Of a stretch of 47,063 bases of DNA, positions 2,580-29,299 are shown one piece after another (the stretch's first letter is position 1; each line of letters starts with the position of its first letter). The stretch comes from Acidobacteriota bacterium (GTDB taxonomy: Bacteria; Acidobacteriota; Terriglobia; Terriglobales; Acidobacteriaceae). The DNA lies in NCBI GenBank assembly GCA_028872955.1, contig JAGWNX010000022.1, positions 1 through 47,063 on the forward strand, given 5' to 3'. A program made the position numbers and the translations under genes. Under the pieces are notes generated by a model, which made no database searches, had not been told where the DNA came from, and saw only the letters and a list, made by a program, of their open reading frames with translations.

Positions 2580-3398
2580 ATGAGTGACGAGTCATTAGAG
2601 GTAGAGCGGTCAGCATCGAATGCGTTTTTGGTATTGATCGGTGTAGCGCTGCTGGTATCGCTGGCATCGCTGGGCTGGTGCTTTGTGCTGCAGAGCCACC
2701 TGGCCACTGCCGACCAGAAGCTGACCGCAGCGCAGCAGCAGGCCAATGATCTGCAGACCAAGCTGGATGCCACCAACGCACGGCTGCGCGCAACCAGCGA
2801 GACGCTGGGCCAGAGCGTGGGCATGACGCAGAAGCAGCTGGAGGCGCGCGCCCAGAGCATCCTGAGCCAGGAGAAGGCAGACACCGCCAAGATTGAGCAG
2901 GCCCAGGCGGCAACCAATAAGCAGATTGGTGCTGTCTCCAGCGACGTGGCCAGCGTGAAGACGGATGTCGGCGGCGTAAAGACGGATGTCGCTTCGACGA
3001 AGTCGGACCTGGAGTCTGCCAAGGCCCAGATGCAGCGCATGATGGGCGACGAGGGGCAGATGAGCGGCCTGATCGCCAAGAACCACGACGAGTTGGAGGT
3101 GCTGAAGCACAAGGGCGACCGTACCTACCTGGAGTTCTCGCTGCAGAAGGGTGCAAAGCCCACGCTGATTGGCACCGTGAAGCTGCAGCTGAAGAAGGCA
3201 GACGAGAAGCACTCGCGCTACACGCTCAACGTCAGCTCAGACGATCGCATTATCGAGAAGAAGGACAAGGGCCTGGACGAGCCCGTGCAGTTCTTCACCG
3301 GCAAAGACCCCGTGCTGTATGAGCTGGTGGTGAATGTGATCGAAAAGAATCATGTCTCCGGGTATCTTTCGATTCCGAAGAACGCGCCGCAAAACTAG
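2580..3398 (+). CDS. Membrane-anchored coiled-coil protein of unknown function
   Basis: 272 aa, no function recognised. Residues about 13-37 (NAFLVLIGVALLVSLASLGW region) form one membrane segment near the N-terminus, giving a type II topology with the rest probably outside the cytoplasmic membrane. Residues about 40-178 are Gln/Ala/Lys/Asp-rich with heptad character, including three near-repeats of VKTDV/STKSDL type around 122-150, and should form a long coiled coil. The final ~90 residues look like a small beta-rich domain (LEFSLQKGAKPTLIGTVKLQL). ATG 2580 is preceded by AAGGAGAGAGCC, a good ribosome site. The gene ends near a bidirectional hairpin terminator (3421-3450). It lies divergent from thiO. 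Confidence 0.8.
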   Translation: MSDESLEVERSASNAFLVLIGVALLVSLASLGWCFVLQSHLATADQKLTAAQQQANDLQTKLDATNARLRATSETLGQSVGMTQKQLEARAQSILSQEKADTAKIEQAQAATNKQIGAVSSDVASVKTDVGGVKTDVASTKSDLESAKAQMQRMMGDEGQMSGLIAKNHDELEVLKHKGDRTYLEFSLQKGAKPTLIGTVKLQLKKADEKHSRYTLNVSSDDRIIEKKDKGLDEPVQFFTGKDPVLYELVVNVIEKNHVSGYLSIPKNAPQN

Positions 3399-3420: not shown

Positions 3421-3450
3421 AACGGGGGACGCTCGATGCGTCCCCCGTTT
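3421..3450. terminator. Bidirectional terminator between the coiled-coil gene and the mini-gene
   Basis: A perfect 12-bp stem (3421-3432 with 3438-3449) with a 5-nt loop and a short T run on the plus side. It sits between the ends of two convergent genes (stop at 3398 plus, stop at 3471 minus) and could end both transcripts. Confidence 0.75.
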
Positions 3451-3470
3451 CTACGTTTGCCTGGATTGCG

Positions 3471-3539
3471 TTACTTCTTGGTTGCCTTCTTTGCTGCCTT
3501 CTTTGCCGGCTTCTTGGCAGCTGCTTTTTTGGTTGCCAT
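3471..3539 (-). CDS. 22-residue Lys/Ala/Pro-rich histone-H1-like mini-protein
   Basis: A very small gene encoding 22 residues beginning MATKKAAAKKPAKK and continuing with AAKK and ATKK. It is composed only of Met, Ala, Thr, Lys and Pro, with 10 Lys residues. The composition is like the C-terminal tails of histone H1 and bacterial HU/Hc1-type nucleoid proteins, which suggests nucleic-acid binding, but no fold or homologue can be named. Support for a real gene: GGGAG 8 nt before the ATG, a near-consensus promoter (3600-3628), a 5' hairpin at the predicted transcript start (3571-3591), and a strong terminator 20 nt after the stop. Lys codons are mixed AAA/AAG. The gene is divergent from the methyltransferase. 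Confidence 0.65.
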   Translation of the reverse strand: MATKKAAAKKPAKKAAKKATKK

Positions 3540-3570
3540 TGTCTATTCTCCCTAGAAGTAGACATCGACA

Positions 3571-3591
3571 CTGCAACACTCGCTGTTGCAG
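3571..3591 (-). other. 5'-end hairpin of the mini-gene transcript
   Basis: An 8-bp perfect stem (3571-3578 with 3584-3591) with a 5-nt loop. It begins within about 2 nt of the transcription start predicted from the promoter at 3600-3628. Such 5'-terminal hairpins commonly stabilise mRNAs; that role is inference here. Confidence 0.5.
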
Positions 3592-3599
3592 CTAACGAA

Positions 3600-3628
3600 G
3601 ATATAGATTCACGAAAAATTCGTGTCAA
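3600..3628 (-). promoter_or_regulatory. Strong sigma70 promoter of the mini-gene with a palindrome in its spacer
   Basis: On the minus strand TTGACA (3628-3623, perfect consensus) and TATATC (3605-3600) are separated by exactly 17 bp. The spacer contains the interrupted palindrome CACGAAAAATTCGTG (3610-3624), placed where a repressor would block RNA polymerase. No cognate regulator is known from this window. Confidence 0.7.
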
Positions 3629-29197: not shown

Positions 29198-29299
29198 GTA
29201 CCGGGTCCTACGCGACGTAATCCCGCCAACCCCGCCAGGTCCGGAAGGAAGCAACGGTAACGGGCTAGTACGGGCGCAGTAGGTAACCCGGTGCTTTTT
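29198..29299 (+). ncRNA. ffs: Signal recognition particle RNA, small bacterial type (4.5S)
   Basis: The apical loop that binds Ffh is unmistakable: GGTCCGGAAGGAAGCA at 29238-29253. The closing stem is CCGGGT (29201-29206) with ACCCGG (29286-29291), and further arm pairing CCTAC with GTAGG is visible. About 100 nt, lacking the Alu domain of the long Bacillus type. Followed directly by five T residues (29295-29299) acting as a terminator with the end of the arm. Works with Ffh (not in the window) and FtsY (15490-16503) in co-translational membrane targeting. Confidence 0.95.

Follow-up and report, generated by a model that had tools for sequence, protein, structure and literature searches.

The window analyzed here, a stretch of 47,063 nucleotides from a member of the Acidobacteriaceae (phylum Acidobacteriota), carries on its minus strand, at 3628-3421, a short unit that a first-pass annotation had described as a mini-gene with signals of its own. 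Direct reading confirms that observation and every sequence statement in it: the unit runs from a TTGACA-N17-TATATC promoter through a 5' hairpin, AGGGAGAAU and a 22-codon open reading frame (ORF) to a 12-bp terminator stem. The features are as follows.

3600..3628, minus strand: promoter, by direct reading (TTGACA at 3628-3623, 17-nt spacer, TATATC at 3605-3600)
A3593, minus strand: predicted +1
3592-3570, minus strand: 5'-terminal leader hairpin of 9 bp with loop GCGAG, from a computed fold
3543..3553, minus strand: AGGGAGAATAG, ribosome-binding site with its GGGAG core at 3552-3548, found in ORF-less relatives too
3471..3539, minus strand: ORF of 22 codons plus TAA, translated as MATKKAAAKKPAKKAAKKATKK (ATG at 3539-3537, TAA at 3473-3471)
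3457..3462, minus strand: AGGCAA motif in the interval between stop and terminator
3449-3438/3432-3421, minus strand: terminator-like hairpin with a perfect 12-bp stem, AACGGGGGACGC/GCGTCCCCCGTT, by direct reading and fold
2580..3398, plus strand: convergent neighbor outside the unit, encoding a coiled-coil-like protein with no Pfam family above cut-off

The terminator calls for a qualification. Its 12-bp stem is indeed perfect, but the textbook form is not there, as the gene's direction offers no clean U-run (CTGCGTTTG). In the computed fold of the unit this hairpin is long (about 22 bp); it is common to the unit and to the convergent plus-strand gene, which ends at 3398, and its stem is seen with sequence changes in relatives. 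The predicted 186-nt transcript folds with a z of -6.7 against shuffled sequence, most of its base pairs sitting in the two end hairpins, and GGGAG is partly paired in the window's own fold. A simple scanner for promoters leaves this one out, because it requires T at the last base of the -10 element, which here is C. A consensus by itself is no proof of a promoter; the proof is the conservation of these sequences. No Rfam family is found at the unit (best match there, E 0.16, far below the gathering cut-off), and the sole Rfam family above cut-off in the window is the SRP RNA, a clear match to the bacterial small SRP RNA at 29199-29296 on the plus strand.

Is the unit a self-contained gene, as had been proposed? 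Comparison of genomes indicates that it is a real one, conserved and single-copy in most of them. A nucleotide search matched 41 of 61 relatives, some of the matches being merely short K/A-coding stretches of other genes. Among its 30 best matches, all loci of the window's genus, promoter, leader, ORF and terminator stem align in 30/30, and TTGACA-N17-TATA is likewise present in 30/30. Of the 37 genomes of the window's genus, 32 contain the string TATAYMTTCGTTAGCTGC a single time; it is present in 0 of 24 more distant genomes. A sequence-only leader model matched 323 of 398 family genomes and 67 of 79 genera; three genomes of the window's genus gave no match to it. A promoter-leader pattern scan of named genomes yielded 71 stretches, under titles that include Edaphobacter, Granulicella, Terriglobus, Acidipila, Silvibacterium, Paracidobacterium and Acidobacterium. 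The promoter is also aligned in alignment A4, whose rows were chosen by a TTGAC..ATA pattern, and GGGAG stands in 59/59 rows of alignment A3, whose rows were chosen by the GGGAG pattern; since both patterns were used to pick family loci, including those of the follow-up in genera g48 and g80, their presence is partly a result of selection. The loci are also kin, so that the counts are not independent events.

The family set comprised 176 loci. The element finder missed five of them (L033, L108, L153, L159 and L169), of which L033 was restored by hand and the other four were left unused; the 171 loci that it found reduce to 116 distinct ones, including L034, which is cut by a contig end. A mobile repeat was considered and ruled out, as nearly all genomes have one copy. 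Two bins hold two differing copies of the unit each (L100 and L101 in G145, L079 and L099 in G225), by duplication or because the bin is mixed, and two contigs titled Rhodanobacteraceae that carry the Acidobacteriaceae element (L145, L147) probably belong to misnamed bins.

The coding claim had been left to stand or fall by the substitution pattern in relatives, and it stands. Of 8691 codon-position differences between family ORFs, 6506 fall in the third position, 1478 in the first and 707 in the second; these come from 779 pairs of equal length with at most four amino-acid differences, and the pairs are not independent. Such a third-position bias supports strong coding constraint on the ORF of the unit. 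Related ORFs number 97 in the family, where the ORF is kept in 97 of 116 distinct loci, and the encoded peptides span forms like MAAKKKAKKKKKH at one end and H1-like repeats of AAPAKK at the other. Their composition is nearly confined to K, A, T, P, S and V, and their length varies from 10 to 87 aa across families; they take the form of a histone H1-like tail, K/A-rich, of low complexity, with T, P, S and V and a varying number of repeats. Neither Pfam nor NCBIfam has a family that matches the peptide, and protein searches with the peptide by itself returned no match, which is uninformative at such length and composition. In one group of genera the mini-proteins are of 13-17 aa and end in His (L081, L083, L084, L088-L091, L326, L327, L329 and L331).

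The gene extends beyond the family. With a structured model that drew on 59 loci, matches at E<=0.1 came from 124 of the 299 genomes in the class Terriglobia, 72 within the family and 52 outside it. All 52 matches outside the family were read, and 49 of them, in eight further families, have a K/A-rich mini-ORF of 10-87 aa directly after the leader (L301, just below the K+A threshold of the script, is counted among the 49). Two more, L291 and L293, from one genus of family f6, keep promoter, leader and GGGAGAAUC without an ORF; L291 has a terminator hairpin, and the terminator finder accepted none in L293. The remaining match is a chance match. The GGGAG region varies in some of the model-only matches of other families. 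Among 346 genomes of the phylum, all seven matches outside the class were weak (E above 0.006), and none had a K/A ORF at the site. Because the mini-ORF is found in other families and at none of the matches outside the class, the gene probably dates back to the class Terriglobia, as far as the models reach.

A second layer of conservation lies in the RNA. Across 59 rows, two leader hairpins covary, the 5' hairpin of the window and a second one present in relatives: 86.0% of their cells are paired, vs 77.0% in shuffles and 24-52% in slid versions, and 56 cells are double-changed, vs 16.3. Codon choice inside the mini-ORFs departs from what these genomes otherwise use. In 93 distinct mini-ORFs, 61% of Ala codons (409/670) are GCA, vs 22% (78/349) in other K/A-rich stretches, 18% (53/301) in 21 ribosomal proteins of the window's own genome and 14% in ten genes of the window. 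The preference is equally strong after AAA (74%) and after AAG (76%), and its cause may therefore be that structure is avoided, not that an AAGGCA motif is kept. Finally, GGCAA occurs in the 3' UTR of 72 of the 92 coding loci with a located terminator, and the interiors of 19 ORF-less loci hold it 40 times in 1097 nt, an enrichment of more than threefold (shuffle mean 12.1, maximum 23). These motif counts cover family loci; for L033 and L110, where no terminator was located, a fixed stretch served as the interior. The motif is absent from five of the seven 3' UTRs of the His-ending group.

Could the transcript then be a non-coding regulatory RNA, its ORF an accident of AAGGCA repeats? The GGCAA repeats of ORF-less copies, the strong conservation of the leader and the skewed codon use would all suit such an RNA. 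We nonetheless regard this as very improbable, given the third-position bias, the fact that other families, though different in nucleotide sequence, retain an ORF complete with start and stop, and a peptide that stays MAAKKKAKKKKKH-like in a group that mostly lacks the 3' motif.

The reading of the unit as a mini-protein gene thus holds up, but its transcript is probably more than an mRNA, since ORF-less orthologues are conserved; this layer at the RNA level had been overlooked. The first 21 family loci read as ORF-less retain the promoter, the leader and the GGGAG core; 20 of them also have a terminator hairpin, L110 being the exception (a looser finder recovered that of L033). These loci come from three genera: g48, g80 and the window's own, of which only part is ORF-less. 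A follow-up in 30 genomes located the locus in 14 of 15 genomes of g48 (L332, from G308, was not located) and in 9 of 9 genomes of g80; all 23 located loci of these 24 further genomes, some of which repeat the first set, are ORF-less, and the ORF is present at 6 of 6 loci from genera g23, g66 and g71. L327 fell below the K+A threshold of the script yet reads MATKKGGKKAAKKTKKH, and G155 is ORF-less when its locus is read. In Terriglobus roseus the locus (L174) is of the g48 type: within the displayed stretch its sequence is the same as in G343, a g48 genome. Five of 46 genomes had no RpoB match and were dropped; on the RpoB tree of the remaining 41, the state of the ORF needs at least three changes, and the starred branches force three. 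At least three changes mean either several losses, or a loss and then a return, by reversion or exchange, in the window's genus.

Are the ORF-less copies simply the decaying remains of a plain mRNA for a mini-protein? The ORF is, after all, kept in most distinct family loci and in 49 of the 52 matches in other families, and 16 of the 21 ORF-less loci have ACG at the start-codon distance, one base from ATG, the trace that loss of a start would leave. The codons ATG, GTG, TTG, CTG, ATT, ATC and ATA are not found at that distance in any of the 21; in the other family, L291 and L293 have ACG 15 nt after GGGAG. We rejected ACG as a working start: translation in its frame yields nothing resembling the K/A-rich mini-protein and often meets no early stop. 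Against decay, ORF-less groups keep promoter, leader, GGGAG core and, in 20 of 21 loci, the terminator hairpin, the ORF-less state spans whole genera, and the identity among eight ORF-less g80 loci is 93% in the interior, vs 29% upstream (downstream, 57%). Because of this g80 interior and the enrichment of GGCAA, the ORF-less copies do not look like free decay, and we judge the plain-mRNA explanation rather unlikely. To see whether ORF-less genomes have a second mini-gene elsewhere, nine of them and four ORF-bearing genomes were covered by a pattern search, which turned up, apart from the element ORF of G176, only DUF6496-like genes of 79-126 aa; the search is of poor sensitivity, having recovered the element's own ORF in only one of the four ORF-bearing genomes.

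The neighborhood bears on two further explanations. In the window and in the three genus relatives examined, the next gene is convergent. Several genera have an rsmE-like gene on the unit's own strand, downstream of it, and rsmE-like and DnaJ-like neighbors recur in several genera. The downstream rsmE-like gene is common to ORF-less T. roseus, ORF-less Granulicella L46 and ORF-bearing Paracidobacterium, and a divergent thiolase is common to ORF-less Granulicella L46 and ORF-bearing Acidipila; this matching synteny makes the locus orthologous between these ORF-less and ORF-bearing groups. Neighbors change between families (Sua5 or a phosphoribosyltransferase, for example), and for this reason the unit is not operon-bound.

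A short Lys-rich ORF followed by a terminator, with an rsmE-like gene downstream in several genera, might suggest an attenuator leader peptide that controls the next gene. The convergent gene in the window and the other neighbors in other families largely refute this, there being no regulated same-strand gene downstream in the window or in the three relatives examined, and we consider an attenuator scarcely credible. Small basic ribosomal proteins are similar to the mini-protein in size and charge, which together with the rsmE-like and DnaJ-like neighbors could point away from a nucleoid peptide and toward a small accessory protein of the ribosome or one that binds rRNA. A composition of almost only K, A, T, P, S and V, a length of 10-87 aa, unlike that of a fitted ribosomal protein, and the lack of a family match in Pfam or NCBIfam make this a doubtful candidate.

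In total, these observations lead us to favor, with somewhat better than even confidence, an autonomous small gene of the Terriglobia that specifies an H1-tail-like polycation from an RNA that also acts as RNA. In this model, a strong-looking sigma-70-type promoter would drive a short RNA with a hairpin at its start and a terminator hairpin at its end, and translation from AGGGAGAAU would yield a Lys/Ala-rich mini-protein, in effect a free-standing tail of the histone H1 type. The earlier suggestion that the gene is likely highly expressed goes too far; good-looking signals do not demonstrate high expression, and we treat transcription, translation and their levels as predictions. The composition of the peptide is consistent with a nucleic-acid-binding polycation, and from that composition we infer that it is most likely unfolded and would bind DNA, RNA or other polyanions by charge, whatever function this may serve. 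The argument that the RNA works as RNA is that in several lineages the ORF is gone and selection still maintains the RNA. It would act most likely via the GGGAGAAU segment and the AAGGCAA repeats, by base pairing or by protein binding. As to a presumptive partner, 20 of the 21 genomes checked encode Hfq (the exception is a genome that is 63% complete), and CsrA (PF02599) was found in 0 of 31 genomes, with 3 of 14 control genomes positive; an Hfq-dependent RNA is thus possible, and an RNA that sequesters CsrA was set aside as unlikely. The wider proposal, that a dual-function RNA with a histone-tail-like polycation is class-wide and that its RNA half is useful enough for lineages in at least two families to have lost the start independently (mostly ATG to ACG) and kept the RNA, is more tentative, and we hold it at slightly less than even confidence.

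The unit resembles known kinds, H1-like tails and dual-function RNAs, and joins them in a new way. AlgP has an H1-like tail, DNA-binding activity and an association with polyphosphate granules (PMC9239181), and Chlamydia Hc2 is described as DNA-binding, with a varying number of lysine-rich pentamers (PMC2848022). Both resemble the mini-protein in their Lys/Ala/Pro-rich repeats (PMC9239181, PMC2848022), but AlgP includes a 154-aa domain (PMC9239181), whereas the Terriglobia tail stands alone, at 22 aa, behind a structured leader, and Hc2 has 165-237 aa (PMC2848022), whereas the mini-protein is as short as 10 aa in other families. Vibrio VcdRP is a dual-function RNA with a 29-aa protein, and VcdR needs Hfq (PMC8672173); like the present unit, with Hfq in 20 of 21 genomes, it is a short RNA in which a tiny ORF is joined to a conserved non-coding part (PMC8672173). 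Bacillus SR1/SR1P is reported to be a dual-function RNA of the same short build. Both are likened here by their build, and they differ in that here whole genera lost the ORF and kept the RNA.

A further likeness is to the DUF6496 proteins (PF20106) of the same bacterial family, which have a MATKKAAKK start and a K/A-rich N-terminal tail; they differ in a further C-terminal domain, and the example sequence is without the unit's promoter and leader. As far as sequence can tell, homology of this tail cannot be told from shared composition. Five loci (L219-L221, L223 and L224) are DUF6496-like with a MATKKAAKK start, PF20106 being assigned by a Pfam run on L224 only. Elsewhere, L178 (G000:C54:29400-30500) encodes a protein with a long K/A-rich tail, presumably akin to the ribosome silencing factor RsfS, and in most of L177 and L179-L191 the encoded protein has an acidic stretch and, after it, a K/A/P-rich tail. 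In the literature on H1-like proteins, dual-function RNAs and small proteins that we covered, which left most subscription journals outside its scope, the gene is undescribed.

What emerges is a gene that a large class of soil bacteria has retained, that matches no family in Rfam, Pfam or NCBIfam and that gene callers, given its shortness, likely miss. Few bacterial nucleic-acid binders of the H1 type may be smaller than its product. The existence of intact and ORF-less orthologues makes the question of RNA versus peptide directly testable in cultivated soil bacteria, Edaphobacter and Terriglobus roseus among them. If the dual-function reading is true, these bacteria would offer a natural series from coding to non-coding.
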